A stretch of 50,786 bases of DNA from the NCBI GenBank assembly GCA_026702745.1, contig JAPPBT010000087.1, forward strand, positions 1 to 50,786, written 5' to 3'. Shown here one piece after another: positions 1 to 49,627 of the stretch. This stretch comes from Gemmatimonadota bacterium (GTDB taxonomy: Bacteria > JAAXHH01). How positions within the stretch are numbered: position 1 is the stretch's first letter; each line of letters opens with the position of its first letter. The notes under the pieces were generated by a model. It worked only from the letters and a program-made list of their open reading frames with translations. It had not been told where the DNA came from and did no database searches. Position numbers and translations under genes: made by a program.

Positions 1-637
1 CGTGGTCGAGGACGCCGACGGCGTGGAGGAGACGTTCGACGAGGTGATCTTCGCCTGCAACGCGAACCAGACCCTGATGCTGCTCGACCGGCCCACGTTC
101 CTGGAGCGCTACATACTGTCGTCGATTCGCTATGAGAGCGAACTCCACAACCACACGGTCGTGCACTCGGACGCATCCGTCCTTCCGGAGAACGAAGTCA
201 GACCGCTGGAAACGCGGAGCAATCATATCGAACAGTACGGCGCCAGGCCGGACAACTACGAGATCACCTACATCATGCACAACCAGCAACCGTGGGTCAG
301 TCGGTCCGACAAACCCTGCCTGGTGACCTACAACCCGGTCAGTCCGATCGATGCGCAGAAAATCGTCAAGAAGTGCTGGTTCCAGCACATCGTGCACGAC
401 GTGCGCCACGTCGCCTGGCTCATCCAACTGTTCCGATTCATCCAGGGCAGGCGGCGTACCTGGCACTGCGGCGCCCACACCCTGGTGAACAGCCAGGAGA
501 CCTGCTTCGTGACCGGCCTCGCCGCCGCCCGGCAGATCGGCGCAGACTATCCCTTCGACGACACCGAGGCCAGGCGGATGTTCAATTACTACGGACGGAT
601 ACTGCATGGCGGGCGATTCAGGAAGGCGAAGGGTTGA
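1..637 (+). CDS. NAD/FAD-binding flavin oxidoreductase, COG2907 type (3' fragment)
   Basis: C-terminal part of a flavin amine-oxidase-like protein; its start lies outside the window, and the visible 211 residues run to a TGA. The part seen resembles the substrate and FAD-cap half of COG2907 predicted NAD/FAD-binding proteins: a FACNANQTL segment after a strand, then VVHSDASVLP, TYNP, and a terminal WHCGAHTLVNSQETCFVTG segment followed by an AARQIG helix, as in amine oxidases where the last glycine-rich stretch closes over FAD. The Rossmann GxGxxG motif is not visible because the N-terminus is missing. COG2907 genes often sit near cyclopropane-fatty-acid-synthase-type methyltransferases. Here the nearest methyltransferase is the sterol-methyltransferase-like gene at 2982-4052, so a role in lipid desaturation or saturation is inferred, not shown. 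Family call good, substrate unknown. Confidence 0.75.
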   Translation, partial: VVEDADGVEETFDEVIFACNANQTLMLLDRPTFLERYILSSIRYESELHNHTVVHSDASVLPENEVRPLETRSNHIEQYGARPDNYEITYIMHNQQPWVSRSDKPCLVTYNPVSPIDAQKIVKKCWFQHIVHDVRHVAWLIQLFRFIQGRRRTWHCGAHTLVNSQETCFVTGLAAARQIGADYPFDDTEARRMFNYYGRILHGGRFRKAKG

Positions 638-653
638 GCACGGCCCGGTTTCG

Positions 654-668
654 ATTGGACCTTCCAAT
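654..668 (+). other. Small inverted repeat after the flavin oxidoreductase
   Basis: ATTGGA (654-659) and TCCAAT (663-668) are perfect inverted copies around a 3-base loop, 17 bases after the stop codon. No T-run follows, so a classical intrinsic terminator is not supported. Confidence 0.3.
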
Positions 669-705
669 GTCCTGTCGGCGCACGTCCGACCGGTGCGCGC
701 GGTAC

Positions 706-735
706 CACCGGAAGCCGGGCCACCGGAAGCCGGGC
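706..735 (+). repeat. Two perfect 15-bp direct repeats
   Basis: The 15-bp unit CACCGGAAGCCGGGC occurs at 706-720 and again at 721-735 with no mismatch, in the 3' flank of the flavin oxidoreductase. It is one of several short tandem arrays found just downstream of genes in this window. Confidence 0.8.
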
Positions 736-786
736 CTGATTTCGCCTGATCCAATCCTCTCGCCACCAGCTTCGGACAAATCCTGC

Positions 787-815
787 TTGTCGCGTTAACG
801 CCTTGTAGTTATAAT
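787..815 (+). promoter_or_regulatory. Sigma70-type promoter for the Rieske gene
   Basis: A perfect TATAAT at 810-815 is preceded, after exactly 17 bp, by TTGTCG at 787-792, which matches four of six bases of the -35 consensus. The start codon at 908 would lie behind a leader of about 85 nt. Spacing and the perfect -10 make this one of the clearest promoters in the window. Confidence 0.6.
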
Positions 816-907
816 ACTTACAGTCAAGACCGACGCCGCGCATCCTGACACGGCGATCCTTCGATCCGCCGACGAATGCCCTCGGACCGCGGTAGACCGC
901 TGGAGGA

Positions 908-1981
908 ATGGCCTTGCATTCATCCGAAACGATCGCAACGCTGACGGCCGACGCGGATACTGGGCTCAACGACAGCCAGGCCAATGATGGGCTTCATCCG
1001 TTCCCGGAAGGCTGGTACCTGGTCACGACCCGCGAAACGCTGCAGCGGGAAAACCTGATCGAGAAGCAGTGGATGGGGGAGGATATCGTCGCTTGGTGCG
1101 ACGAGGAAGGCCGGGTCTGCGTGGCCGAAGCCGTGTGTCCGCACCTGGGTTCCGACCTGGGGCCGAAGGTCGGCGGCAAGGTGTGCGACGGCCGCCTGGT
1201 CTGCCCGTTCCACGGATTCGAGTTCGATACGACCGGGCAATGCGTCGCGACGCCCAACGCTCCGGCGCCGAAAGCTGCTCGGTTGGCCGTGTACGAGACC
1301 CGGGAGATCCTCGGCATGGTCTTCGCCTGGTACGGACTCGGCGGACGGTCCGCGCACTGGTACCTGCCGGACGACCCGCCGACCGGCAGCGCGTGGGGCA
1401 AGTTGGGTTACCGAACCCTCCGGTTTCGCAGTCACCCCCAGGAAACCGCGGAGAACTCCGTGGACATCGGCCACCTGCGTTACGTGCACGGCTACGACAA
1501 CGTAAACCCGGTCGGATCAGTCACGGTGGAAGGCGCCTACCTGAAGAGTTGTTTCGACTTCAAGCGCGTCCGCAGCGTCCTGGGCGTTACGGACATGGTC
1601 TACGAGGTCTCGGCTGTCACGCACATCCACGGACTGGGATACTCCTACGTGGAGATCCATGAGAAGACCATCGATATGCACGCAAGGCTCTGGGTCCTCC
1701 CGACCCCGGTCGACGGCGAGTACATCGACCTCGTGCTGGTCAGCCAATTGCGGGAGATCCGGAAGCCGCGGCGGTTCGTCTCCGGCCTGGGATTCCTGCC
1801 GTCGAAGCTGCGCCGGCGACTGATGAACCAGATCCTTCTTTCGCAGCAGAAGCGGGATGTGCTGCAGGACGTGGTGATCTGGGAACGAAAGCAGTTTCGC
1901 ACGCCGCCCCGGCTGTGCAAGGCCGACGGCCCCATCGGCCTGTACCGGCGTTATTGCCGTCAGTTCTACGCTGCCCGATGA
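908..1981 (+). CDS. Rieske 2Fe-2S non-heme iron oxygenase
   Basis: Terminal oxygenase of about 357 residues. The Rieske cluster ligands are C77-x-H79 and C99-x2-H102 (VCPHLG ... CPFHGF). The mononuclear iron site is N183, D186-x2-H189-x4-H194 in NSVDIGHLRYVHG. This layout is that of the ring-hydroxylating/sterol-acting group that includes KshA, the DAF-36/Neverland cholesterol 7-desaturases and the bacterial sterol demethylase SdmA; which branch it belongs to cannot be settled here. No ferredoxin or reductase partner lies beside it. It converges on the minus-strand TPR gene, with one base between the two stop codons. Start: ATG 908 sits very close to GGAGG at 902-906, and the in-frame TTG at 914 has better spacing, so the true start may be 914. 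Polycyclic-lipid oxidation is inferred from the neighbouring methyltransferase and P450. Confidence 0.85.
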   Translation: MALHSSETIATLTADADTGLNDSQANDGLHPFPEGWYLVTTRETLQRENLIEKQWMGEDIVAWCDEEGRVCVAEAVCPHLGSDLGPKVGGKVCDGRLVCPFHGFEFDTTGQCVATPNAPAPKAARLAVYETREILGMVFAWYGLGGRSAHWYLPDDPPTGSAWGKLGYRTLRFRSHPQETAENSVDIGHLRYVHGYDNVNPVGSVTVEGAYLKSCFDFKRVRSVLGVTDMVYEVSAVTHIHGLGYSYVEIHEKTIDMHARLWVLPTPVDGEYIDLVLVSQLREIRKPRRFVSGLGFLPSKLRRRLMNQILLSQQKRDVLQDVVIWERKQFRTPPRLCKADGPIGLYRRYCRQFYAAR

Positions 1982-1982
1982 A

Positions 1983-2957
1983 CTACCGGCCGTTCTCGTG
2001 TACCGCCAGGGTCTCCAGCACATCCTGATGGATGAGCGCTTCGAAGGCGTCCCGCGCCGGGAGTCCGGCCGCCTTCGACAGCAATTCCCCGGCACGCTCC
2101 CGGCCGCCCTCGTTATCGAGTTCGGGTAACTTGAGCGCGTATTCCAGCAGGACGATCATCGAGTCCGGCGCGAGTTCCAGCGCCCGTTCGTAATGGATGA
2201 CCGCGCTCTCGCGGTTCCCCTTGTACAGGAACCGGGCTACGCGCCCGGCCCGGGCTATACCGGCATGCCAGCCCCCGAAGGCCATGTGCGCATCGGCGAA
2301 GTCGGGATCGATGGCAAGCGCGGATTCCAGCAGTCCACGGACCCTGCCCGCCAGGCCCCGGCGAAGCGCCGTAAACGTGCCGACGGTCAGCGCATACCGG
2401 CCAACGGCGTGCGCGGACTGGTAATACGCTTCTTTATTGGTCGAATCGGCGCGCACCGCCTCCTCGCCGAGTTTCATCGCACGTTCAAAGAACCCCTTCC
2501 GGTCATCACTGGCCGCAACGTAGTGGCCGTACACCGCGAGCGATTGCGCCGCCAGGGCGAATCCCACGGACGTCCCGACCGCTTCCGCCAGATCCGCGGC
2601 CTCGAGAAAACGGCCTTCCTCGAAAGCGGTTCGCGCGTTGTCGATCGGCTGCGCGTTCACGCTTGACTGGGCGGTTGCACCAAGCTGAGCGTTCACGTCG
2701 GGCTGGGCATCCCCACCGGACTGAGCGTTCACATCGGGCTGGGCGTCCGCACCGGACTCGGCATTCACGTCAGACTCGGCATCCGCACCGGGCTCGGCAT
2801 ACACGTCGGACTGGCCGTCCGCACCGGACTGAGCGTTCACGTCGGGCTGGGCATCCCCACCGGACTGAGCGTCTGCAGTGGCCACGACAGCAAGGCAGCA
2901 CACAAGAAGCACGAGCGCCCCGATCGTAGCGAGACGCGCAAATCGCGAAAGTGTCAT
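1983..2957 (-). CDS. Secreted TPR-like protein with N-terminal 12-residue repeats
   Basis: 324 residues: a hydrophobic signal peptide (about residues 8-30, cleavage plausible after ATADA), then about 70 residues of degenerate 12-residue repeats of the type DAQPDVNAQSGG, then a helical domain from about residue 108. Helix pairs such as ARTAFEEGRFLEAADLAEAV, SALAIDPDFADAHMAFGGW and HYERALELAPDSMIVLLEYAL are TPR-like. Predicted to be periplasmic or outer-membrane-associated. It is the last gene of the minus-strand train that starts with the efflux pump, 24 bp after the methyltransferase. TPR proteins are usually scaffolds, so a role in organising the lipid-handling complex is a guess from position. 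No enzymatic motif is visible. Confidence 0.7.
   Translation of the reverse strand: MTLSRFARLATIGALVLLVCCLAVVATADAQSGGDAQPDVNAQSGADGQSDVYAEPGADAESDVNAESGADAQPDVNAQSGGDAQPDVNAQLGATAQSSVNAQPIDNARTAFEEGRFLEAADLAEAVGTSVGFALAAQSLAVYGHYVAASDDRKGFFERAMKLGEEAVRADSTNKEAYYQSAHAVGRYALTVGTFTALRRGLAGRVRGLLESALAIDPDFADAHMAFGGWHAGIARAGRVARFLYKGNRESAVIHYERALELAPDSMIVLLEYALKLPELDNEGGRERAGELLSKAAGLPARDAFEALIHQDVLETLAVHENGR
2655..2880 (-). repeat. 36-bp coding minisatellite in the TPR gene
   Basis: Roughly six imperfect copies of a 36-bp unit encode 12-residue blocks alternating DAQPDVN/DAESDVN and AQSGG/AQSGAD. The changes keep the frame and keep the composition acidic and polar, between the signal peptide and the TPR-like domain. 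Confidence 0.75.
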
Positions 2958-2981
2958 CTTGCCATCTCTGTTTATTCGGGT

Positions 2982-4052
2982 CTAAAGAGGTTTGCGAGCC
3001 AGGAAACAGTACAGCGGTGTGAAGATACCTGTCTTGCCACCCGAAACATAGGCGTCCGCGGTGCGATCAAGGAGCCGGACGACTTCCGATGAACCCTTCG
3101 GTAGCAGACGCAGCATTTCGGCCATCTTCGATCCCGCGATGATGGCTTTACGGCCCCATGGAAGCCTGCGCAGCGTATTCCCCAACGTGCCGTGACGACT
3201 ATCCATGGTACGATACCAGGGCGTGGACGGTCCTTCCTGGATGTCCCGGTCCTTTCCTTCAATGACGTGGAATCCCGCCGCTTCAAGCGCGCGATTCACT
3301 TCTTCGAACGTCGCGATGTCGTTCAGTGCAATACCACGCCGGAGTTCCTGCTCAATAGCACGGTGGCTGGCGTCTTCCGGATCGAACTTGTCGGTCAGGC
3401 ACATTTCCTGGCCCCAGAACAGCGCGCCCGGTTTGAGTACGCGGTATATCTCCTCGAACGCGCGTACCTTGTCCGGCGCGTGGCACGTCGACTCGATGGC
3501 ATAGCCCCTGTCGAACGTCCCGTCCTCGATGCCGTCCATATTCATGAAGCTGCATGCCTCATAATCGACCATGTGGCCGATTCCCGCCTCGGCGTTCAAC
3601 TTCCTTGCCTGTTTGAGTTGGACTTCACTGATGTTGATACCGACGACCTTGACACCGGTCTCACGGACGACGCGGCGCATAGGGCCGCCGACCCCACAAC
3701 CAACGTCCACCACCGTCATGCCCGGCTTCAAGTCCAGCTTCGAGATCATCAACCGCTGATGACGGACGATGGATTCTTCCAGGCTCTCATCGGGTGTGAG
3801 TGGTACGAAATGCAGGGATTCGTTCCAACCCCACACCATGAATCCGCTGCAAAGATCATAGTACTCTTGCACCGTTGACGCATGGTCGTATCCGCCCGTG
3901 CCGTCGGATTCCGGCGCCGCCCGGGCCGACCGGGCCGACCGGGCCGACCGGGCCGACCGCGCGATCCAGCCGTCGAAGTGCCGGACACGACCCTTGACGC
4001 CCGTTCCCCGGTAAGCCTCACGCAGATCTCTGGACAGTTTACCCAGTTTCAA
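2982..4052 (-). CDS. Sterol 24-C-methyltransferase-like SAM-dependent methyltransferase
   Basis: About 356 residues aligning along their length with the Erg6/SMT family by eye. Landmarks: YYDLCSGFMVWGWNESLHF (64-82), matching the aromatic YY...YGWG.SFHF sterol-binding region; SAM motif I VVDVGCGVGGP (114-124); YAIESTCHAPD (184-194), nearly the SMT signature YAIEATCHAP; EIYRVLKPG; and a C-terminal segment with PWYRTM and GSSEVVRLLD...SGGKTGIFTPLY matching the sterol-methyltransferase C-terminal domain. The family transfers methyl from SAM to a C24(25) side-chain double bond. Residues 31-44 are an odd (A/S)AR repeat from a 9-bp array. The first in-frame start is TTG at 4052; an out-of-frame ATG at 4063 ends in a TGA overlapping that TTG. 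It lies 37 bp after the GPP34-P450. Bacterial SMTs are known but rare. The substrate could also be another polycyclic or isoprenoid lipid. Confidence 0.85.
   Translation of the reverse strand: MKLGKLSRDLREAYRGTGVKGRVRHFDGWIARSARSARSARSARAAPESDGTGGYDHASTVQEYYDLCSGFMVWGWNESLHFVPLTPDESLEESIVRHQRLMISKLDLKPGMTVVDVGCGVGGPMRRVVRETGVKVVGINISEVQLKQARKLNAEAGIGHMVDYEACSFMNMDGIEDGTFDRGYAIESTCHAPDKVRAFEEIYRVLKPGALFWGQEMCLTDKFDPEDASHRAIEQELRRGIALNDIATFEEVNRALEAAGFHVIEGKDRDIQEGPSTPWYRTMDSRHGTLGNTLRRLPWGRKAIIAGSKMAEMLRLLPKGSSEVVRLLDRTADAYVSGGKTGIFTPLYCFLARKPL
3922..3957 (-). repeat. Four perfect 9-bp repeats in the methyltransferase gene
   Basis: CGGGCCGAC (plus-strand reading) repeats four times without mismatch at 3922-3930, 3931-3939, 3940-3948 and 3949-3957. 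It encodes the Ser-Ala-Arg stretch near residue 40, upstream of the catalytic domain. The unit is a multiple of three, so copy changes would not break the frame. Confidence 0.9.
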
Positions 4053-4089
4053 TACGGTGACATCTCCCCTGGAATTCGTCTCAACGGCT

Positions 4090-6117
4090 TCAGACAGGCA
4101 ACTCGCGTCTCTGCTCGGTGATGACGAATTTCAGCTTCTTGCTCGGTTTCAAAGAGGGAAACGGATTGAACTTGAGCTTGAAGTTTGCGGGCGACATTTC
4201 GAGCCTGAAGTAATGCGCCAGCAACAGCAGGTTGACCGCCAGTTGCAGTTCCATCCAACGGGTGCCGAGGCACATGTGCGTGCCCAGTCCGTACGGAGCG
4301 TATCCGGGACTGCGATGTTCGTGGCGCGGCGGCAGATAGCGGTCGATGTCGAATTTGTACGGGTCGGGAAATATGTCGCGCATGTAATGCGTGGCGGTCG
4401 GCGCGATATGGAGCCGTTCTCCCAGGGGCAGTTCGTACCCGTCGAAAACACACACGTTCATTACGTTTCGAATTGACATGGGCACGATCGGGTACATGCG
4501 CATGCACTCCATGAGGAAGCGGTGCGTAACGTCGATCGCGGGTGGTGCGAGCGCCTCTGCTTCCGGATCGCCGTTCCCGAACAAGGCATCGGATTCCTCT
4601 CGGATTTTCTCGTAGAGCGCAGGCTGTGACACCATGGCGTATACCACAAGGCTATACATATCGCCCAGGTACACGCTGGCAATCAACGCCGCGGAAAAGG
4701 AAAACCGCAGGTTGGATTCAGGGAGAAACTGCGGGTCGCTTGCGTGGAGGCTGAGGTACTCGTCCACGAGGTCCCGCGGGCTGTCGGCCCGTTGGGCAGG
4801 GGTATGGACGCCTTCTATTCGTTCCATCAGCGTATCCAGGGCTTTCGCCCGCCGTTTCATGCCCGGGGTGTTCAGCGTGAATTTAGGCAGGATCCTGGCG
4901 ACGTGCACGCTGAGCGCCCGTTCCTTGAACTTCATCAGATCGTCCAGGACGTCCTGGGAATCGACGCCGATAAACAGGGGCGAAAGTTGTGAGTTGATCA
5001 TCCGGCGGCACATGGTCGAAGCGGTATAGGCGTCTCCGACGTTCCAGCTTGCCATGTGACGGCGCGCATGTTGGTAGAGCTGGCCCAACTGCCCTCCCAG
5101 TCTCCCGCGGGAATACGCTGGCGACAGGGACTTGCGAAGCCGGAAGTGATCGGCGCCGTCCAGGGAAGGCAAGAGGCCGGATGCCCCGTAGACCTTCTCG
5201 AATTCGCTGAAGTAATCCCTGGCCCTCAGGTACATGCGTCCGTGCTTGTGCACCCAGCGGTTTACCTCGAGTCCTGCCATAAAGACCATGGGCCTGGCGA
5301 ACGGAGGACGGATCTTGAACACCGGACCGTACTCCTCTGCCAGGCTCGCAAATAGCGCGTTGAGGTTGCCGTCTCGTACGTGCGGGTTTCGCAGCAGTTT
5401 ACGAAGCGAAACCATCGGGATCTTACGCGTAAAAGCGGCCCGGCGAAGCGTCGGGCTGGCCATTTTGTGTGAGACTGCTTCGGCGATTGACCGGCCGATT
5501 TCGTCCATCTTGCAGATGAACTCGATGCGCTGCTCCGACTCTTCGTCGAGTTGGAACATGAATCGAAAAACGTCACAGGTATTGACCAGGCATATGACGA
5601 TGACGTCTCTCGGGTCGGGTATCTCGTTCATGAAGATCGCCCGGCTGATCCGCGTTCTGATGAACTGATTCGCCGTGCCCTTTTCGTCCTCTTCGTACAA
5701 TCCCATCTTCCAGTCGACTCGGGCCAGCGTCCAGAACTCGCCGTCGTGGTGTTCCAGGACTTTCATTTCTACCAGGCGATCCAGCACCGAATCGATAATC
5801 GTCTCCGCCCGGGGAGCCAGCCGTTCGATCCAGTATTGCGTATTCTGCTGATTGGGCTCGCTCGCGATTTCCTCGAGTATGAAATCGATGGTGGAATTGC
5901 CCGTGGGCGTCTGGTCGAGGAGAAACAGGGACTCCACATCCGTGTCGATGCGGGACCTGAGTGAGAGTTCCGCAAGCACGGCACCGACCACGGCGCAATG
6001 CAAATGCCAACCGGGCACCTGGTGGAAGTAGCCGGTCTCCTCGTTGAGCAGCATCAGGATGAGTTCCTGAGTCAACGTAAGCGGTTGGGGCTTCGTGCCT
6101 TTATTGGTTTCAGTCAT
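4090..6117 (-). CDS. GPP34 (GOLPH3/Vps74-like)-cytochrome P450 fusion
   Basis: 675 residues with two domains. Residues about 12-216 resemble GPP34: LTLTQELILMLLNEETGYF, then VVGAVLAELSLRSRID, LLDQTPTGNSTIDFILEEIA, and RISRAIFMNEIPDPRDVIVI. Eukaryotic GPP34 proteins (GOLPH3, Vps74) bind phosphoinositide and retain Golgi enzymes; bacterial homologues are mostly uncharacterised. Residues about 230-670 are a P450: K-helix ExxR in FLMECMRMYP, FDIDRYLPPR, and the heme loop YGLGTHMCLG with cysteine ligand near residue 616. The I-helix lacks the usual (A/G)Gx(D/E)T; the aligned stretch reads IASVY, so the acid-alcohol pair is missing. The start ATG (6117) shares its A with the TGA of the RND gene, so translational coupling is likely. 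No redox partner is nearby. The domain calls are firm by motif; the function of the fusion is unknown. Confidence 0.82.
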   Translation of the reverse strand: MTETNKGTKPQPLTLTQELILMLLNEETGYFHQVPGWHLHCAVVGAVLAELSLRSRIDTDVESLFLLDQTPTGNSTIDFILEEIASEPNQQNTQYWIERLAPRAETIIDSVLDRLVEMKVLEHHDGEFWTLARVDWKMGLYEEDEKGTANQFIRTRISRAIFMNEIPDPRDVIVICLVNTCDVFRFMFQLDEESEQRIEFICKMDEIGRSIAEAVSHKMASPTLRRAAFTRKIPMVSLRKLLRNPHVRDGNLNALFASLAEEYGPVFKIRPPFARPMVFMAGLEVNRWVHKHGRMYLRARDYFSEFEKVYGASGLLPSLDGADHFRLRKSLSPAYSRGRLGGQLGQLYQHARRHMASWNVGDAYTASTMCRRMINSQLSPLFIGVDSQDVLDDLMKFKERALSVHVARILPKFTLNTPGMKRRAKALDTLMERIEGVHTPAQRADSPRDLVDEYLSLHASDPQFLPESNLRFSFSAALIASVYLGDMYSLVVYAMVSQPALYEKIREESDALFGNGDPEAEALAPPAIDVTHRFLMECMRMYPIVPMSIRNVMNVCVFDGYELPLGERLHIAPTATHYMRDIFPDPYKFDIDRYLPPRHEHRSPGYAPYGLGTHMCLGTRWMELQLAVNLLLLAHYFRLEMSPANFKLKFNPFPSLKPSKKLKFVITEQRRELPV

Positions 6118-9100
6118 CAGATCTGCCCTCCCTTCATCATACGCAGATGAATGGTGGAAAGCGCGGGAACGACCATCATGATTATAACCGTAACAAAGAG
6201 TATACCGCAACCGAGCGATGCGGCAAAGGGAACCAGAAACTGCGCCTGAATGGCGGTTTCCAGAATCAGCGGCGTAAAACCTAGAAACGTAGTCAGGGAA
6301 GTGAGCATAATCGGACGAAAACGACCCTTTGCGCCCTCGATGATCGCGGTCCGTATCGGGTCGCCCTCCTTGCGTTTCTGATCGATGAAATCAATCATGA
6401 CCAGGGAATCGTTCACGACCACGCCGCTCAGGCCGAAGATTCCCAGAAAGGACACGGCGCTCAGGGCTACGCCAAGGACCCAGTGGCCCAGGATCACTCC
6501 GATGAATCCGAAGGGGATCACCGCCATGATGATGAACGGCTTGGTATAGGATCGCAAGGGGATGGCGAGCAGTGCGAAAATCATGATCAGCGCGATCGCA
6601 AACCCGCGATACAGCGCATCCAGGGAATCGAGCTGCTGTTGTTGTTCACCTCCGAACGTGTAGGTCAGATCCGGGTACACGTCGGTCAATGCCGCAAGGA
6701 TCGAACCTTCCAGGATGTTGTTGGCCTGGTCGCCGGAGATGACCGCGGCGTCCACGTCCGCGGAGACCGTGACGACACGCTGGCCATCCTTCCGCCGTAT
6801 GGCCGGCGGCGAAACGCCCGGGTTCAGCGTGGCCACGCTGACGACCGGGACCTCGGCCCCGCCCGGCGTGCGGACCAGGTACCTTTCGATATCGGTGATG
6901 GAACTCCGCTCATCGGCGGGCAGGCGCACGTAGACGCGGACCTCTTCCCTGCCGCGTTGGACCCGGACGGCATCCGCGCCGAAAAACGCCGCGCGCGTCT
7001 GTCCGGCCAACGCTTCCAGCGTCAGATCCAGGGTACGCGCTTCCGGCCGTAGTTCAAGCTGCATTTCCGGAATGCCCGGGGTGTGATCCGACCGGATGTC
7101 GTGGACACCCGCCACTTCCCGGAGACCGTCGACCACGTCGTTCGCAATCCGGGCGAGCAGTTCAGGGTCCGGATGGGACAGTACGGCCTCGACCGGGTTG
7201 CCCAGGTCAAACACCGCGCCGCTGAAGGTGAGGCCGCGCACGTAGGGAAGTACGCCCACCTCTTCCCGCCATGCCTGCACGACCTCTCCGGATGAGATCT
7301 GCCTTTGCTGCGCACTCAGGAGTTTGAATTCAATGGTAGCGATGTTGGCCTGGGGATTGAGGGTGGGAGCCGGATTGAGTCCGCCTTCGAGTCTCGATCC
7401 CATACCGACGGTCACCGTAACGCCGCTCAGCAGCGGCGGCGCATCCTCGGGCCGGCCACTCGAGAGCCGTTCCATGACCCGATGACCCGCGGCCTCCAGT
7501 TCCTGTGCCACCTCGTATGTCCTCGGGGCGGTCGTCCCATCAGGCATCTCCAGGACGACTGTCGCGAAATCCCCCTCGATGTCAGCGGCCAGCGTAGTGG
7601 GTACGATGCCCGCCGGCAACAGCGAGATGCTGAGCACGAGCATGCCCACGGCGCCCCCCATCGTGATCGCGGGCTGATCCGTCGCGAACCGCAGCGCGCG
7701 GTCCAACAGACCCTGCACGAACCGGTTCAGCAACTCGTTTACCCGACCCTGGATTCGAGAGAAGAAACGTTCGAATACGTTTACCGGCACCCATTCCGGA
7801 CCCTTCAAATGGGACAGGTGGTTGGGTAACACCAGCAACGACTCGACCAGGGAGACCAATAGCATGGCGATGATGATGACCGGCAGAGCCCGCCATACGT
7901 CACCGATGCCGCCGGGGATGAACAGCAGCGGGACGAAAGCGACCACCGAAGTGAGCACCGCGAAAGTCAACGGCACCTTTATCCGTCGTACACCGCGGAT
8001 CGCGGCTGTAACGCCGGGCGTTCCCCGGCTGCGTTCGTATTGAATGTGCTCGGATACGACGATGGCGTCGTCGACGACGATCCCTATGGCGAGTACGAAG
8101 GAAAACAGGCTGATTTCGTTGATCGACACACCGAACGCATTCATGACGGCCAGCGCGCCGATACCCGAAACAGCGAGGCCGGCGGCGACCCATATCGCAA
8201 GCCGGATCTGGAGAAACAGGCTGAGCGCGATCAACACCAGCAACAGTCCCAGGATTCCATTCTTGATCAGGAGATCGGCGCGTTCCTCATAGACCTGGGA
8301 TTCGTCATTCCACATGGTAACGGCCACGCCGTCCGGCAGTGCCGGGATCACCTCGTTTTCCAGAAGTTCCCGGACGTTCGTCGCGACGTCCATCACCTGT
8401 TCTCCATCGGCCCGGTACACCTCGACGAATACAGCGGGATGGTTCTGATGCCGGACGATAAGGTCGGATTCCTGAAAACCGTCGCGGACCACGGCAATAT
8501 CCCCGAGACGAACGACGGTTCCGTCACGCCTGCTGAGCAGGACGATATCTTCGAAATCCTGCTGGTCGTAGTTCTGGCCCAAAGTCCGGATCCGCACCTG
8601 GGATTCCCGGGTATCGATACTGCCGGCGGACAGGTTCAATGAACTGCGACGGATGGTATCGGCGATGTCGTTGAGTGTCAGGCCAAAGGCGCTCAGCCGA
8701 TGGAGCGGTACCTCGATGGAGATTTCGTATTTCCGAACGCCGCTGACGTCGACCTGGGACACGGACGGAAGCACCGTGAGTTTATCCTCGATCTGATACG
8801 CCAATTCCTTCAGCGAGCGCTCGGACACGTCGCCGTAGACGATGAGCCGCATCAAGCTCATGCGGTTGTCCATCTCCCGGAAACTGGGACGATCGGCACC
8901 GGCCGGGAAAGACTGTATGCGATTGACCGCGGACTCGATATCGTTCAACGCCTGCGCCATGTCCGTACCGGAATCCATTTGAACCCGCACGGACGCGATT
9001 CCCGGGGCCGCCACGGACTTGACCGCCTTCACGTCATCCAGTCCGCTGACCTGATCCTCGATCTTGACGACGATCGACTCCTCGATCTCCTCCGGCGTGG

Positions 9101-9293
9101 CGCCTGGATAGGCCATCGACACTTCAATGTGGTAGAAGGGCGTGGTGGGCCACGCTTCACGGTCGATGCCGGTCAGCGAAACCAGGCCCGCGGCTACGAT
9201 GGCCCACATCAACAGATTGGCGGCTACGCTGTTGCCCGCCATGTAGGCGATCGGACCGGAAGGTTCTTTATGATTGCCGTTTTCCATGCTCAT
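6117..9293 (-). CDS. RND-family efflux transporter permease (AcrB/HAE1-like)
   Basis: 1058 residues, the normal length of an inner-membrane RND pump with 12 membrane segments and two large periplasmic loops. TM4 carries the proton-relay pair in GIVVDDAIVVSEH. The corresponding C-terminal repeat has GLSGVVVNDSLVMIDF, without the TM10 lysine seen in AcrB. PGATPEEIEESIVVKIEDQ near the N-terminus is the typical porter-domain opening. It overlaps the membrane-fusion gene by four bases (ATGA) and the P450 gene by one base. RND pumps export lipophilic compounds using proton motive force. The tight coupling to a P450 and a sterol-methyltransferase-like gene suggests that the cargo is the modified lipid or its precursor; that is inference. 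Confidence 0.93.
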   Translation of the reverse strand: MSMENGNHKEPSGPIAYMAGNSVAANLLMWAIVAAGLVSLTGIDREAWPTTPFYHIEVSMAYPGATPEEIEESIVVKIEDQVSGLDDVKAVKSVAAPGIASVRVQMDSGTDMAQALNDIESAVNRIQSFPAGADRPSFREMDNRMSLMRLIVYGDVSERSLKELAYQIEDKLTVLPSVSQVDVSGVRKYEISIEVPLHRLSAFGLTLNDIADTIRRSSLNLSAGSIDTRESQVRIRTLGQNYDQQDFEDIVLLSRRDGTVVRLGDIAVVRDGFQESDLIVRHQNHPAVFVEVYRADGEQVMDVATNVRELLENEVIPALPDGVAVTMWNDESQVYEERADLLIKNGILGLLLVLIALSLFLQIRLAIWVAAGLAVSGIGALAVMNAFGVSINEISLFSFVLAIGIVVDDAIVVSEHIQYERSRGTPGVTAAIRGVRRIKVPLTFAVLTSVVAFVPLLFIPGGIGDVWRALPVIIIAMLLVSLVESLLVLPNHLSHLKGPEWVPVNVFERFFSRIQGRVNELLNRFVQGLLDRALRFATDQPAITMGGAVGMLVLSISLLPAGIVPTTLAADIEGDFATVVLEMPDGTTAPRTYEVAQELEAAGHRVMERLSSGRPEDAPPLLSGVTVTVGMGSRLEGGLNPAPTLNPQANIATIEFKLLSAQQRQISSGEVVQAWREEVGVLPYVRGLTFSGAVFDLGNPVEAVLSHPDPELLARIANDVVDGLREVAGVHDIRSDHTPGIPEMQLELRPEARTLDLTLEALAGQTRAAFFGADAVRVQRGREEVRVYVRLPADERSSITDIERYLVRTPGGAEVPVVSVATLNPGVSPPAIRRKDGQRVVTVSADVDAAVISGDQANNILEGSILAALTDVYPDLTYTFGGEQQQQLDSLDALYRGFAIALIMIFALLAIPLRSYTKPFIIMAVIPFGFIGVILGHWVLGVALSAVSFLGIFGLSGVVVNDSLVMIDFIDQKRKEGDPIRTAIIEGAKGRFRPIMLTSLTTFLGFTPLILETAIQAQFLVPFAASLGCGILFVTVIIMMVVPALSTIHLRMMKGGQI

Positions 9294-10504
9294 GGGGTCT
9301 GGCCGGTCTCCGTCTGGACACGCATGCCTTCCGTCGTAAACCGGATCCCGCCGGTGACGGCGGCCTGGCCTTCTTCGAGGTCACCCGTCACATAGGCTAT
9401 ATCGCCGGTACGCTGAAGTACCTGCACTGGAACGATATGTACTGCGCCGCCATCACGGACGATCCAGACCTCGTTGCCGGATTGCAGCGCCGCTCGCGGA
9501 ACCAGGTAGTAATCATCCCGCTCAAGACCGTTGATTTCCACTTCGACGTACTTGCCGACCAGCAGGGGGGGATTGCCGCCAGGACGAGCCGTGCCGTCCA
9601 TGGGCTGTCCCGATCGAAAGGGATCCGGTACGCGTACGATTACGTCGATGGTGCGCGTTTGCCGGTCAACGTATGGCTCGCTTCGGTCCACGTAACCCGT
9701 CCAGGCATAGGATCCTTCACCGAAACGGGCGATTACGCGCGCACCGACGCTCCGGTTCCCGTCGCCCGCCGAAAGCGACCACAACCCAGGAATCAATGCG
9801 GCATCGGAATCGGATAGCGGCACGACGACTTCCACGGCATCGGCGGCGAAAACGCTTGCGACCGGCTGGCCGGCGGCAACGATCTGTCCCACATCCACGG
9901 ACTCTTCCTGTACGAAGCCGTCGAAAGGTGCGGTTATATGGGTTCTGGACAGGGCGAGATTGGCCTCGGCGAGACGTGCTTCATCGCGATCCAGTGCGGC
10001 CTGGGCCGCCTTCAGCTGTGGATCTCTCAACGCGAGTGGATTTGCGTTGTCTTCCGAAGAAGCATTCCCTTTGCGCGCAGTGTAGAGATCGTGCTGTGAA
10101 CGGGCAATCGACGCCTGTTCCTCCTCCCGCAGCAATGCCAGTTGACTGGCCGCGAGACCGGCCTCCGCTTCCCGCACCCGGTACCGGTAGTCGACATCCT
10201 CGATGCGGAAGAGCGTATCCCCCGCCGCGATCCGGCCGCCACTCAGGAACCCCGGGTCGACCCACGCGATTCTGCCGCCTACCTGCGAAACGACATCGAT
10301 CTCCGCACTCGGCCTTACCGTACCGGAACCGAACACCGGAACGGGTCCGGATCCCGCGGTGACCAGGCCCGTCTGAACGAAGGGTACCTGGGGCGGCTGT
10401 TCCGTGCGCGTCGGTTGCGGGGCCAGCGAAATCAACAGGGCGGCCAATGCCACGGAAACTCCGAGTATGCCGCCGGCAACGAGAAAACTGGTTAAACGCG
10501 ACAT
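9290..10504 (-). CDS. RND efflux periplasmic adaptor (membrane-fusion protein)
   Basis: 404 residues with one N-terminal membrane anchor (FLVAGGILGVSVALAALLI), then a split lipoyl/barrel-sandwich domain (GTVRPSAEIDVVSQVGGRI ... THITAPFDGFVQEESVDVG), an alpha-helical hairpin between them, and a beta-barrel/MP domain toward the C-terminus (YYLVPRAALQSGNEVWIV). The order is that of AcrA/MexA-type adaptors that bridge an RND pump to an outer-membrane factor. It starts 7 bp after the outer-membrane factor stop codon and overlaps the RND start by four bases, so the tripartite pump is co-translated. Confidence 0.92.
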   Translation of the reverse strand: MSRLTSFLVAGGILGVSVALAALLISLAPQPTRTEQPPQVPFVQTGLVTAGSGPVPVFGSGTVRPSAEIDVVSQVGGRIAWVDPGFLSGGRIAAGDTLFRIEDVDYRYRVREAEAGLAASQLALLREEEQASIARSQHDLYTARKGNASSEDNANPLALRDPQLKAAQAALDRDEARLAEANLALSRTHITAPFDGFVQEESVDVGQIVAAGQPVASVFAADAVEVVVPLSDSDAALIPGLWSLSAGDGNRSVGARVIARFGEGSYAWTGYVDRSEPYVDRQTRTIDVIVRVPDPFRSGQPMDGTARPGGNPPLLVGKYVEVEINGLERDDYYLVPRAALQSGNEVWIVRDGGAVHIVPVQVLQRTGDIAYVTGDLEEGQAAVTGGIRFTTEGMRVQTETGQTP

Positions 10505-10511
10505 GGCTTAT

Positions 10512-12041
10512 TCACTCCGTTGGAGGACGGGCAGAAAGACGACCGTCCGGCTGGGGCTGCCGCAGCATGAGACGCTCACGGTCGGTGGCGGTCCAGGTGC
10601 CGCCCAGTGCGCGATGGAGAGCGAGCCTGGCGTAACCCAGGTCCCGCGCCGCTGCCGCCAGTATCGACTGCGCCGCTAAATGGGTCTGTTCCGCCGCCAG
10701 GAACGCTTCGTATGCCCCCACGCCTGATACGTATCTTTGCTCCTGCAGCGCCGATTCGGACCGGGTTTCATCGGAGATGGCGGCCAGCAGCGCATGTCTG
10801 CGGCGACTGGCGTCGAGTCCCACCAGGGCCGATTCGACTTCGTTTACCGCGGTGACTACGGAGCGTCCATAGGCGGCAGCGGCCTCGTTCAGCCGCGCCT
10901 CCGCGATCGCTATACTGTTCCGAATCCGGGAACCCTGGAATACGGGACCCAGCAAATTCGCGGTGAGGTTCCTGAACCATTGATCGGGGTCGAACCATTC
11001 GCTCGAATCGGTGCTTTGCAGGCCGATCGCGCCCTGCAGAGACAACCTAGGCAGCAGGTCGGCGCGCCGCGCGCCGACGGAAAACCGCGCCGCTTCCACA
11101 CGCTGCATGGCCGCGAGGACATCGGGCCGCTGGACCATGAGATCGGCCGGGATGCCCGCGGGGACGGGATCGAGTGAAGGCGCAGGACCGGCGGAATCGG
11201 ACAGCGTATGTGCCAGGTCGGCCCGGAAGCCACCCATGAGTATCCAAAGGCGCCCCTCGGCGTCCGCACGCAGCGCTTCGATCTGCGGCAATTCAGCCTG
11301 GGCTTCGCGCAGTCTGCGCCGCGCTGTGTGGAGATCCTCCAATTCGATCAGTCCCCGTTCGTACCGGGACTCGGCAAGCGATTCCAGTTGTTGCAGGACG
11401 GCCACGATCTCGCCGGACAGCGCCTGCTGACGGCGCAAACTCGAAATCTCCAGATAGGTACGGACGGTCTCGGCCAGCACCCCCATGCGTGCGCTGAGAT
11501 AGTCCGCCTCCGTGGCCGCCAGTTCGGCCTCGGCGGATCGCGTATCGTTGCGGTTGCGGCCCCAGAAATCGAGTTCGTAGGCGAAGTCCATACTCAGGGT
11601 ATAGGTGGTGAGTCCCAGACGGTCGGGGATCTCCACGCCCGCCGCGCTCAGGGATTCCGGGTCCAGCCCGACTTCCTCCAGTTGCGCTCCGATGCCGGCG
11701 TTCGTCGGACCGTCGAAGTCGTTCACGCTTAACGAAGGCTGAAGCAGGGGAAACGCCGCAGCCCGGGCAACGCCCGCCCGGCTCCGGGCCTGCTGTACCC
11801 GGGCGACCGCTCCGGCCAGGTCGAAATTCGAAGAGAGCACTTCCTCGATTACCCGGTCGAGGACCGGATCTTCGAATGACTTCCACCACGCCAGGGGCCG
11901 GTACGCACCGGAATCCGCTACGCCGGCGGCAAACGCGCCGGGCGTTTCCGGTACCGATTCGAGCACCGGAAGGTTTCGGTTCGGCGCCAGGGAACAGGCC
12001 GAGAGGAGCAAAATGGAGAAAAGTACGGAATAACGTACCAT
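10512..12041 (-). CDS. Outer-membrane efflux lipoprotein, NodT/TolC family
   Basis: About 509 residues from ATG 12041, chosen because it opens with a lipoprotein signal: MVRYSVLFSILLLSAC with the lipobox LSAC. The rest has the duplicated TolC-fold layout, with the family opening WWKSFEDPVLDRVIEEVLSSNFDL, long helical stretches with VARVQQARSRAG and EAELAATEADYLSAR, and a second copy near QRPDVLAAMQRVEAARFSVGARRADLLPRLSL. It forms the outer-membrane channel of the tripartite pump and is the first gene of the train; a promoter should lie in 12042-12344. Confidence 0.92.
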   Translation of the reverse strand: MVRYSVLFSILLLSACSLAPNRNLPVLESVPETPGAFAAGVADSGAYRPLAWWKSFEDPVLDRVIEEVLSSNFDLAGAVARVQQARSRAGVARAAAFPLLQPSLSVNDFDGPTNAGIGAQLEEVGLDPESLSAAGVEIPDRLGLTTYTLSMDFAYELDFWGRNRNDTRSAEAELAATEADYLSARMGVLAETVRTYLEISSLRRQQALSGEIVAVLQQLESLAESRYERGLIELEDLHTARRRLREAQAELPQIEALRADAEGRLWILMGGFRADLAHTLSDSAGPAPSLDPVPAGIPADLMVQRPDVLAAMQRVEAARFSVGARRADLLPRLSLQGAIGLQSTDSSEWFDPDQWFRNLTANLLGPVFQGSRIRNSIAIAEARLNEAAAAYGRSVVTAVNEVESALVGLDASRRRHALLAAISDETRSESALQEQRYVSGVGAYEAFLAAEQTHLAAQSILAAAARDLGYARLALHRALGGTWTATDRERLMLRQPQPDGRLSARPPTE

Positions 12042-16150: not shown

Positions 16151-16242
16151 CAAGGACGCCTACAGAGATCCGCCATGAAAACCACCCGCGTCCGTGTCAA
16201 GCCGGTCAATTTGAAGCGATTCACGTGGGACGGATGACCAAT

Positions 16243-17889
16243 ATGAGTACGCGCACCGTAAGTTCCGCTGCATCAATGTCCGCGGCGTCTTCGGCGCCGG
16301 ATGGGTCCTGCCGCGACAAAATGGGCCGCATCGGCCTGCCCGAACCCGTGTCCTCGCTCGCGAAACGCGACTGGGACGCGGTCGTCGTGGGCGCCGGGCA
16401 CAACGGCCTGGCCTGCGCGGCCTACCTCGCCCGCGCCGGGAAGCGGGTGCTGGTCCTTGAAGCCCGGGAACGCGTGGGCGGCGCCTGCACACTCGAAGAA
16501 ACCTGGCCGGGTTACCGCGTATCGCCCTGCGCCTACCTCGCCGGCCTGCTCCATCCCCAGGTGATCGAGGAATTGGATTTCGCACGCTACGGCTACCGAT
16601 GGACGCCGGCCGAAGCGGGCATGTTCGTACCCTTCGAGGACGGGTCGAGCGTACAGCTGTGGGAGGACGACGACCGCTGCCTGGAGGAGATCCGCCGCCT
16701 GTCGCCCCGGGACGTGGAGGGCTTCCAGGCCATGTACACGCCCATGCGGCGCATCCGGGAGGCCCTGCGCCCGCCGGGCGAGGAAGACATCTGGATCGGA
16801 CGGGCGCCGACCCGGGAGCAGATCGAAGAACGTCTCGAGGGCGACCAGGAAGCGATCGGTCTGCTCTTTGAATGGTCCATGGTCGAATACGTCGAGCGGT
16901 ATCTCGAAGACGAGCGACTGCGCATGGCCCTGACCGGCCAGGGCGTGATCGGGACGAATGCCAGCCCCTACGAACCCGGAACCGCCTCCGTGCACGTTTT
17001 CCACTCTACGGGAACGATGGCCGGCATGCCTGGCATGTGGGGGTACGTGCGAGGCGGCATGGGCATGGTGTCCTTCATGCTGTGCGACATCGCGCGAGAC
17101 TCGGGCGCCGTGGTGGCCGCGGGCGTGCCCGTTGCCCGCATCATGCCCGGCGAGGGCGTCGAACTGGAGGGCGGCGAGCGCGTCCGCACGAAGGCCGTGG
17201 TATCGAACGCCGATCCCCGGGTCACGCTGCGCCTCCTCGGCGACGCGGCCGACGGGACATGGAAGGCCCGCGTAGAATCGGTGCCCCAGACCGGCGCGAC
17301 CGTCAAGATCAACGTGGCCCTCGCCGAATTGCCGGATTTCACCAGCCGGCCGGGGACGGACGAAGACCACCACCGGGGGCAGGTCAACATCCCCCTTACC
17401 GCACAACAATGGCACGAATACCACGCCATCGCCGGAGAAGGCCGGTTGCCCCCGCGCCTCTGGGAGGAACTTTACTTCCATACCGCCCACGATCCGAGCG
17501 TGGCGCCGGCGGGCCGTCACACCATGAGCATCTTCGCCCAGTTCGTCCCCTACGCCTTCGCCGAGGGCGACTGGGATTCCCGGAGAGAGGAGGTGGGGAG
17601 GCTGGCCCTGGCATCACTCGGCCGCTTCTGCAGCAACATGCCCGATGCCGTCCTGCAAATGGACGTCATGGGACCGCCGGATATCGAAAAGAAGGTGGGG
17701 TTGACCGGCGGCCATATCTTCCAGGGCGAGATCCTGCCGGCCTACATGTGGGAGAAACGCCTCGAACCGAGGACACCCATGCCCGGGGTCTACCTGTGCG
17801 GGGCGTGCACCCATCCGGGCGGCAGCGTGATTGCCGTCAACGGGCGTAACGCGGCGATGGAAGTGCTGGGGATGTACGGGGATCAGTAG
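16243..17889 (+). CDS. FAD-dependent oxidoreductase, PYROXD2/phytoene desaturase-like
   Basis: About 548 residues. The FAD-binding motif [28 protein letters not shown] is followed by GGACTLEE, and the C-terminus has [29 protein letters not shown], the pair seen in COG1233 phytoene-dehydrogenase-like proteins. The family includes carotenoid desaturases and the poorly understood PYROXD2; the overall length fits the latter. The start is uncertain: GTG 16225, ATG 16234 and ATG 16243 are all in frame, and 16243 has GGGACGG at a reasonable distance. An unusual 45-residue Ser/Ala-rich stretch precedes the FAD motif. Its 3' end overlaps the convergent proS by 7 bp. Confidence 0.82.
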
Positions 17890-48116: not shown

Positions 48117-48422
48117 TCAGCCTGTCCCTCGGTAGAATGTCTCCGCGGTCTTACAGGTTACGAATAAGGCGCCCAGCATCAGGACAAGGAAGAGGTACAT
48201 CGGCCACGACGGAGCGTACCACCACGCCAGCGTGAAGAAGACGGCGCTTATGCATGTGCCGGGTAGCACCATCTTGTTGTACGCGACCTTGAACAGGACA
48301 AGGACGAACAACCCGAAGATACCCTTCAGGATCAGTCCCCAGAACGTCTCCGGCAGCGCCAGGATCACGACAATACAGAAGCAGATGAACAGGAGCAGTA
48401 CGACAGGGAGTAGACGGTTCAT
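48117..48422 (-). CDS. Small multi-pass membrane protein, unknown
   Basis: 101 residues, mostly hydrophobic: [53 protein letters not shown] and [15 protein letters not shown] suggest four membrane helices. Its ATG overlaps the stop codon of the collagen-trypsin gene by four bases (ATGA), so the two are translated together. A role beside that secreted protease (export, anchoring) is inferred from the coupling alone. Confidence 0.6.
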
Positions 48423-49627
48423 TGCGAAAGTATCAGGTCCGGACGGTAGTATCTGGCAGCGTCCAGCTGCAGTCCGGAAACATCGTCAAACCATGATGAA
48501 CTACTTTCCGCGATGGTCGCGGTCCGGTCCGCCTGATCCAACCAGTCGATGAATTCCCACACGGCCTGAACGTGGATTCCATAGTCTTCGTGCGTGTCGA
48601 TCCTTCCGATGACCACTTCGTCGTCCGCTATCTCTATCGTAATCCCCGCGTATTGCACGGCCACGATGTAGCCATGGTGGTCGAATACCGGACTGCCGCT
48701 CGTCCCACCGGTCAACGCCATGTTGTAATGAACGACACGGCCGGTGTTTTGAGGATCTCGGTCAAACGCGGCATCGTAGAAGGGCCGGAGCGAACTGAGG
48801 GTGCCTTCCCGGAAGGTTGCCAGCGGCAGTACGTCATTCTGCAAGGGGGAATAGCCCGGAAAGCCGAGTGATCCCAGAGGCTGGCCGATACGCAATCCTC
48901 CGGCCAGATCCCTCGGCAGAAACGCGGGGAGTGCATGGGGCAGTTCTTCTCCGAGGACGATCAACGCCACGTCGGGCGATTCGAGCGTACCGTCGTAATC
49001 CGGGTGGGTGAAGTACCGATTCCACGTGTAGGTTTCGCTTTCGCCGACCAGCGTACCGGTCCTGGTGGCGAAGGGCCTTGGATTGCGACTGCGCAGCCTG
49101 GGGTCGGACAGCAGCTCGTCGATCCGATCAGCCACGTGCGCGGCGGTCCACAGCCGGTCCGTGTAGTACGCGCGGAAGGCGGTTCCGAGCACCCTGTTGC
49201 CGTCGTTCATCATGATGCCGACGGCATAAATCGCGTCGTAGAGGTTACCCTCTTCGATCACGCCCGCCCAGTTGAGCGTCTCCCCCTGCGGGCCGACGGG
49301 ACCCTGTTCGCCCTGTTCGCCCTGTTCGCCCTGTTCGCCAGGATCGCCCTGCGGTCCGGCCGGGCCCGGACTGCCCGGTGGACCCGTTTCGCCGCGTTCT
49401 CCCTGGGGACCGGGAATACCCGGGTCGCCCTGGATGCCTGGTTCGCCCTGGATGCCTGGTTCGCCCTGGATGCCTGGTTCGCCCTGGGATCCCGCGATCC
49501 CCTGCGGACCCGAAATGCCTTGAGGCCCCGGTGGACCCTGGACGCCCGCCGGACCGACCGGACCCCGTTCGCCCTGACATGCAACGGCCAGCAGAAACGC
49601 CGTCAACAAAAACGCTCTAAGCGACAC
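48419..49627 (-). CDS. Collagen-like, trypsin-like serine protease lipoprotein
   Basis: 402 residues. Lipoprotein signal with LLAVAC, then about 32 Gly-X-Y triplets (residues about 19-114; for example [19 protein letters not shown] in three copies, [10 protein letters not shown]). A linker [20 protein letters not shown] leads to a chymotrypsin-fold domain: the catalytic histidine in LWTAAHVAD, aspartate in [10 protein letters not shown], serine in [13 protein letters not shown]. The fold resembles HtrA/V8-type proteases. It is tethered to a membrane with a rigid collagen stalk. The neighbour at 49661 is a paralogue with the same architecture. The substrate is unknown; a surface or host-contact role is a guess. 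Confidence 0.85.
49306..49491 (-). repeat. Collagen-coding short tandem repeats
   Basis: A 9-bp unit (CCCTGTTCG) is repeated about four times near 49310-49340, and an 18-bp unit (CCCTGGATGCCTGGTTCG) about three times near 49431-49490. All are multiples of nine, so repeat gain or loss changes the number of Gly-X-Y triplets without changing frame. Confidence 0.8.

Follow-up and report, generated by a model that had tools for sequence, protein, structure and literature searches.

The stretch of DNA analysed here, referred to as the window, is the whole 50,786-bp contig JAPPBT010000087.1 of a Gemmatimonadota bacterium whose genome of 3.88 Mb is 96% complete. It carries a minus-strand operon in which an RND efflux pump is joined to a cytochrome P450 fused with a GPP34 domain, to a divergent protein of the sterol methyltransferase (SMT) family, here termed SMT-B, and to a TPR protein; genes for a Rieske oxygenase and a flavoprotein converge on it. 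We consider it probable that these genes are a copy of a module for tailoring and exporting sterols that has spread laterally among bacteria associated with sponges and probably with corals, and through which an imported sterol would be remodelled and exported.

Organization and conservation of the operon

The operon comprises an outer-membrane factor of NodT type (10512–12041; OEP PF02321, 133 bits; TIGR01845 over cut-off), a periplasmic adaptor or membrane fusion protein (9290–10504; HlyD_3 PF13437, 56 bits; TIGR01730 over cut-off), an RND permease of AcrB type (6117–9293; ACR_tran PF00873, 537 bits), the GPP34-P450 fusion (4090–6117), SMT-B (2982–4052; PF08498, 62.5 bits; PF08241, 67 bits) and a TPR protein with a signal-peptide-like start (1983–2957; TPR families of Pfam), all on the minus strand. 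Within the fusion, the GPP34 domain (PF05719, 98 bits) lies at about 5473–6075 and the P450 domain (PF00067, 122 bits) at about 4129–5376. The mechanical open reading frame (ORF) of the outer-membrane factor extends beyond the gene as given, to 12101. Since a single operon encodes all three components, the pump is a tripartite RND efflux system. Neighbouring genes are separated by 7 bp (outer-membrane factor/adaptor), 37 bp (P450/SMT-B) and 24 bp (SMT-B/TPR) or overlap by 4 bp (adaptor/permease) and 1 bp (permease/P450), the last in the string TGATG, where one base is common to the permease stop and the P450 start. On the plus strand follow a Rieske non-haem iron oxygenase of KshA type (908–1981; KshA_C PF19298, 77 bits; Rieske PF00355, 62 bits) and the 3' part of a flavin oxidoreductase (2–637; 211 aa, 94% identical to congeners), which is truncated because the window ends where the contig ends. 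Gene order, junctions and the two convergent genes had been described in a first-pass annotation made from the sequence, and ORF coordinates and Pfam matches agree with it throughout. It had also assigned the truncated gene to COG2907; the fragment has no Pfam match, and a full-length relative (locus L040) matches Amino_oxidase PF01593.

The GPP34-P450 gene is present in all 12 genomes of the genus. SMT-B stands in the operon order of the window in 8 of the 12, the window's own genome included and two being truncated by contig ends, so that synteny of the permease, P450 and methyltransferase is kept wherever the genus carries SMT-B. Compared with three congeners, the six module genes have dN/dS values of 0.05–0.21, and the neighbouring ecfT and oxidoreductase genes values of 0.04–0.11. 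Strong matches to the flanking ecfAA gene are confined to the genus, whereas the module gene set recurs across phylum labels. The conserved order in 8 of 12 genomes, the low dN/dS and this recurrence make the module more than a chance association. A reductase of the ERG4/ERG24 family scores over cut-off in seven of the eight SMT-B genomes and in none of the other four, although these co-occurrences are not independent events, since the genomes are related. In the window's genome this Pfam-confirmed sterol reductase gene lies on another contig (L157, 7525–8664); by eye, it adjoins phytanoyl-dioxygenase-like genes.

Recurrence across phylum labels

A scan of one genome per species yielded 208 SMT-B relatives, of which the best 80 (64–97% identical) were analysed; genome-wide searches covered 79 carrier genomes, all but that of locus L115. 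The 80 loci bear 12 phylum labels, with six loci unlabelled, but these labels are submitters' bin titles, at least one of which is wrong (L053, titled Latescibacterota), and bins may be mixed. The SMT-B of Gemmatimonadetes bacterium SB0665_bin_8 is 97% identical to that of the window. The module companions recur at these loci: GPP34-P450 at 67, the Rieske gene at 57, the flavoprotein at 42 and an exporter of the RND superfamily at 62, so the linkage of pump and lipid genes proposed from the window holds in related loci. Among the 45 loci with full 10-kb flanks the corresponding counts are 36, 36, 26 and 37. Where a locus lacks the P450, it is found elsewhere in 11 of 12 genomes (58–68% identity), which brings the total to 78 of 79 carriers, compared with a full-length GPP34-P450 match in only 1 of 103 out-of-genus genomes. 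An ERG4/ERG24 relative is present in 32 of the 50 carrier genomes searched for it, three being only 44–45% identical and some being fragments. Four Chloroflexota loci (L086, L093, L101, L102) have tandem pairs of ERG4/ERG24-type reductases near the module.

Gene order and strand differ among lineages. The arrangement is pump-P450-SMT in the window and pump-SMT-P450 in six Acidobacteriota, while most Chloroflexota loci have an MMPL exporter followed by SMT-B, with the P450 on the opposite strand. The six Acidobacteriota rows group together in the SMT tree, as a single clade nested within a supported Gemmatimonadota set. Between the Acidobacteriota and ten Gemmatimonadota loci, identity is 0.91 for the permease (5 pairs only) and 0.86 for SMT-B (60 pairs), compared with 0.62 for the P450, 0.70 for the Rieske protein and 0.74 for the flavoprotein. 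The permease and SMT-B are thus far more alike than the other three, and it looks, from these sequences, as though the pump and the methyltransferase had moved as a unit between the two groups. Pairwise identity correlates with that of SMT-B at r = 0.76 for the Rieske protein and r = 0.71 for the permease. Multiple changes per phylum do not prove lateral transfer.

As to hosts, four bins are named 'Plut', which we take to mean the coral Porites lutea. A hand count finds IRC, RHO, COS or APA in 34 of the 80 bin names, and we read these as sponge bins because the letters fit the sponges sampled in PMC8163846, namely Ircinia ramosa, Rhopaloeides odorabile, Coscinoderma matthewsi and Aplysina aerophoba. 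Many of the carriers thus apparently live in sponges and corals.

Sterol synthesis genes beside the module

The module is tied to sterols by three contigs on which SMT-B and the P450 adjoin genes of de novo sterol synthesis. At L061 (titled Nitrospirales), L067 (titled Nitrospira) and L075, homologues of SdmA, CYP51 and ERG24 lie within about 10 kb of SMT-B; SdmB is present at L061 and L075 and a canonical SMT at L061 and L067. All four module enzymes are found at L061, all but the flavoprotein at L067, and all but the Rieske gene in the stretch seen at L075, whose contig carries a canonical SMT and a flavoprotein gene beyond the locus. Each of the three contigs continues into a frame of 1206–1216 residues with the DCTAE motif of oxidosqualene cyclases, and on the L061 contig Pfam finds squalene epoxidase and both cyclase domains. 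By score (186–196 bits), oxidosqualene-type cyclases occur in 6 of the 79 carrier genomes, all six with DCTAE; in two further members of this group (L185, L187) GPP34-P450 neighbours the cyclase. Matches to a cyclase model over cut-off occur in 34 of 79 carriers (24 of 50 and 10 of 29).

The window's own genome presents a different picture. The first 12,041 positions of the window had been noted to hold no squalene epoxidase or oxidosqualene cyclase, and profile searches extend this negative to the whole draft genome, in which neither model matches anything; synthesis elsewhere in this genome was accordingly rejected as a source of the substrate, so that, of the two sources first suggested, import is the one we propose. 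Squalene/phytoene synthase genes are present. Neither cyclase nor epoxidase was found in 10 of 11 congeners, likewise draft genomes; the exception is G011, where a contig of 3.5 kb carries part of an epoxidase-cyclase gene and contamination may be the cause.

The SMT-B methyltransferase

SMT-B has a methyltransferase domain together with Sterol_MT_C (PF08498), which scores well above its cut-off of 21.7 bits and is present in 11 of the 12 genus genomes and in none of 14 control genomes. A quick tree with SH-aLRT support only places SMT-B in a clade of its own, set off by a long branch (SH-aLRT 100). The rows, taken from aligned pieces, are 8 of 10 canonical SMTs and 81 of 82 SMT-B proteins, and hold no non-sterol methyltransferases; it is thus the Sterol_MT_C domain, rather than the tree, that answers the question of non-sterol clustering raised in the first-pass annotation. 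The SAM-binding, CHAP, PWY and C-terminal motifs are common to SMT-B and canonical SMTs. Region I with its acidic residue is a mark of sterol C-24 methyltransferases, and all 8 canonical rows have that residue. At this position the 81 SMT-B rows have V in 72 cases, the window's among them, E in three and other residues in five, with one unread. The description as sterol-methyltransferase-like therefore stands as to family, and the separate clade and altered Region I set the protein apart from standard SMTs. On its sequence we file SMT-B in the SMT family and not as a C-24 SMT, and the altered Region I makes it plausible that it acts on another substrate or position. The predicted structure has a pLDDT of 82.6.

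The GPP34-P450 fusion

The fusion is a P450 by its PF00067 domain, by matches to the P450 fold and by the cysteine loop [FY]GLGxHxCLG, found in 60 of 63 relatives (63 of 74 pieces were aligned); ExxR is retained as well. The aligned I-helix stretch lacks the usual acid-alcohol pair: 62 of the 63 have IASVYLGD or a close variant there, and one has IAGHYTAS. An AGxDT-like pattern occurs in 35 of the 63 proteins, away from this stretch. The protein scores against CYP51 chains but lacks the CYP51-type I helix (AGQHTS in CYP51 homologues), and identity as CYP51 was rejected. The AlphaFold2 model of the fusion has a pLDDT of 82.9. In structural comparison, which barely covers the GPP34 part, CYP46A1 leads (Z 34.5), followed by CYP184A1 and CYP120 at 33 and CYP51 at 32.8. 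CYP46A1 is a cholesterol side-chain hydroxylase; we do not use its match as proof of a sterol role because the others score close behind. GPP34 is a domain best known from the Golgi, and eukaryotic GPP34 proteins bind membrane lipid. A stand-alone GPP34 protein without P450 is also encoded in the window's genome (L046), and proteins of the same kind in congeners.

Proposed mechanism

The linkage, the protein families and the motifs are observed; from them we infer the substrate, whereas the order of steps and the direction of transport are conjecture. The proposal, in the first-pass annotation, of one pathway that modifies and exports a sterol or related polycyclic lipid gains from the families, the linkage and the sterol-gene neighbours, while its substrate and the export step stay conditional. 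A sterol made by the sponge, or by another symbiont able to produce sterols, would enter the cell of a bacterium that probably cannot make them itself; uptake is proposed because the window's genome has no cyclase or epoxidase. The GPP34 domain may dock the P450 on the membrane. The Rieske enzyme, the P450 and the unlinked ERG4/ERG24-type reductase would oxidise, desaturate or reduce the sterol, and SMT-B would methylate it, possibly at a different position or on a side chain that has been modified. The flavoprotein may introduce a double bond into the methylated product, as UfaD does on the pathway to furan fatty acids. The RND pump would then carry the product to the outer membrane or out of the cell, with the TPR protein as a possible periplasmic partner of the exporter.

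Alternative explanations

Several observations weigh against this proposal. Eighteen of the 80 loci have no exporter and nine have no companion at all. Pairwise identity follows that of SMT-B only loosely for the P450 (r = 0.46) and the flavoprotein (r = 0.43). The SdmA and SdmB homologues of L061 score 415 and 303 bits, under the NCBIfam cut-off of 600, and absence of cyclase and epoxidase from draft genomes is no proof of absence. To these are added, below, the nearest relatives of the permease, three congeners with a pump but no SMT-B, and a P450 paralogue beside a hopene-type cyclase.

The strongest competitor, though in our estimate unlikely, is that the lipid genes form a sterol module while the AcrB-type pump exports drugs in general and has no link to them beyond the common operon. 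The closest solved relatives of the window's permease are indeed multidrug pumps. Three congeners (G001, G003, G005) retain pump, TPR and Rieske genes with no SMT in place; their P450, 56–58% identical, lies beyond the Rieske gene, and each has one canonical-type SMT elsewhere in its genome. (In G009, whose genome is fragmented, the search found no SMT.) The exporter type also varies by lineage: the 62 exporters comprise 28 RND permeases, 22 of one MMPL type and 12 of another, the AcrB type being found in the window and the Acidobacteriota, the first MMPL type in Chloroflexota and the second in Alphaproteobacteria and Dadabacteria. The same variation can be read the other way, as lineages without the AcrB-type pump place an MMPL exporter near SMT-B instead. 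Moreover, the permease stop overlaps the P450 start, an RND permease stands at the locus in 17 of 19 Gemmatimonadota and 6 of 6 Acidobacteriota carriers, and no other module proteins are as well conserved between these two groups as pump and SMT-B, albeit on the few permease pairs given above.

A hopanoid or another non-sterol triterpenoid as the substrate appears less likely again. In favour of this, the strong cyclases outside the six DCTAE genomes look hopene-type where a motif was seen (DxDDTA in 6 of 10 loci scanned), and a GPP34-P450 paralogue, 35% identical, adjoins a hopene-type cyclase with DCDDTA in L188, so this P450 family is not restricted to sterols. The paralogue speaks for a wider triterpenoid use, and the fusion family may serve triterpenoids at large. 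Against hopanoids, no Gemmatimonadota-labelled carrier (0 of 19) has a cyclase match above 36 bits, so that hopanoids would also need to be imported, and the Sterol_MT_C domain and the sterol genes adjoining the module on three contigs point to sterols.

Steroid breakdown or detoxification, with the Rieske enzyme starting ring opening and the pump removing the rest, is very improbable. The Rieske and KshA_C domains do place the enzyme with the KshA type, its nearest solved chains are catabolic 3-ketosteroid 9alpha-hydroxylases, and its iron-ligand motifs are listed across 59 relatives (59 of 65 pieces aligned). However, the ring-cleavage dioxygenase TIGR03213, the one further catabolic gene searched for, is over cut-off in none of the 12 genus genomes; every one of them has a weak match, the highest at 66 bits with a cut-off of 366, and so do 5 of 14 controls. 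Breakdown would also leave the methyltransferase and the biosynthetic neighbours unaccounted for. Least credible is action of SMT-B on a non-triterpenoid, to which its closest solved relatives by sequence and fold (non-sterol natural-product methyltransferases) and its altered Region I might point, but against which stand Sterol_MT_C, the motifs in common with canonical SMTs and the sterol-gene neighbours.

Other features of the window

The permease has VVVNDSLVM at the position of the lysine in transmembrane helix 10 (TM10) of AcrB (three strings compared), so its proton relay may differ. Relatives of the TPR protein lie near exporters in 12 loci, and the loci of the out-of-genus relatives (L040, L062, L065, L124, L182) also hold an MMPL exporter; compared with solved structures the protein has no significant match (best E 0.13). 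After the signal-like start, at about 2680–2870 (minus strand), it has DAQ/NAQ-rich near-repeats, and congeners mostly align only from residue 59–105 onward. At 16225–17889 (plus strand), 3' of an oxidoreductase gene, lies a second flavin amine-oxidase-like protein, one stretch of which matches PF13450 and PF01593. At 48419–49627 (minus strand) is a protein of a host-interaction type, with collagen triple-helix repeats and a trypsin-like peptidase domain.

Possible significance

The module bears on the question of which organism makes the odd side-chain-alkylated sterols of sponges, and offers a compact gene set that recurs and is open to expression and assay. It occurs mostly in genomes without a detected sterol cyclase, its exporter slot is filled by three RND-superfamily types, and its P450 is joined to a Golgi-associated domain. 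We speculate, and think it rather doubtful, that a pathway spread by lateral transfer is common to sponge symbionts from many phyla, themselves unable to make sterols, and that in it sterols of the host or of neighbours are oxidised by the membrane-docked GPP34-P450, alkylated where no known SMT acts, for example at C-26, and returned through a dedicated exporter. If so, C-26 alkylation would supply the step still lacking for 26-methyl sterols, among them aplysterol, and for the biomarker 26-methylstigmastane; bacterial remodelling would then account for some of the sterol chemistry now attributed to sponges and for some of their fossil sterane record. 24-Isopropylcholestane is possibly the oldest evidence of animals, and the enzymes of 26-methylation are described as undiscovered (PMC10070321). 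That bacteria may alter host sterols is an idea already published (PMC10070321, PMC9531527).

Comparison with known systems

Published work already describes sterol clusters and functional SMTs from sponge symbionts. The module of GPP34-P450, SMT-B, Rieske enzyme and exporter was not found in the open-access literature searched, which does not prove that no report exists. Uncultured sponge symbionts have SMT homologues, some clustered with sdmA and sdmB, and of ten tested eight were active, two making 24-isopropyl sterols; the main text does not mention P450, GPP34, Rieske, flavin, RND or transporter at all (PMC10070321). In Ircinia symbionts, sterol genes are spread over ten phyla with signs of horizontal transfer and often an SMT nearby (PMC9531527). 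Their core of ERG24, CYP51 and lanosterol synthase is absent from the window's module, and the main text mentions no GPP34, Rieske, efflux or RND genes.

Parts of the module resemble other systems. Like BstABC of Methylococcus (PMC10942540), it combines an RND-superfamily inner-membrane protein with TPR-like structure, present as a substructure in BstC; unlike BstA, which is HpnN-like, the window's permease is of AcrB type with adaptor and channel, and an MMPL exporter from other lineages matches the BstA model only weakly (30 bits). UfaM and UfaD (PMC7380195) likewise pair lipid methylation with a subsequent desaturase having a predicted NAD-FAD domain, a likeness by description, but act on fatty acids. 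The Rieske protein, finally, resembles steroid-acting Rieske enzymes, both KshA and, by description only, Neverland/DAF-36, which has been described as a cholesterol dehydrogenase.

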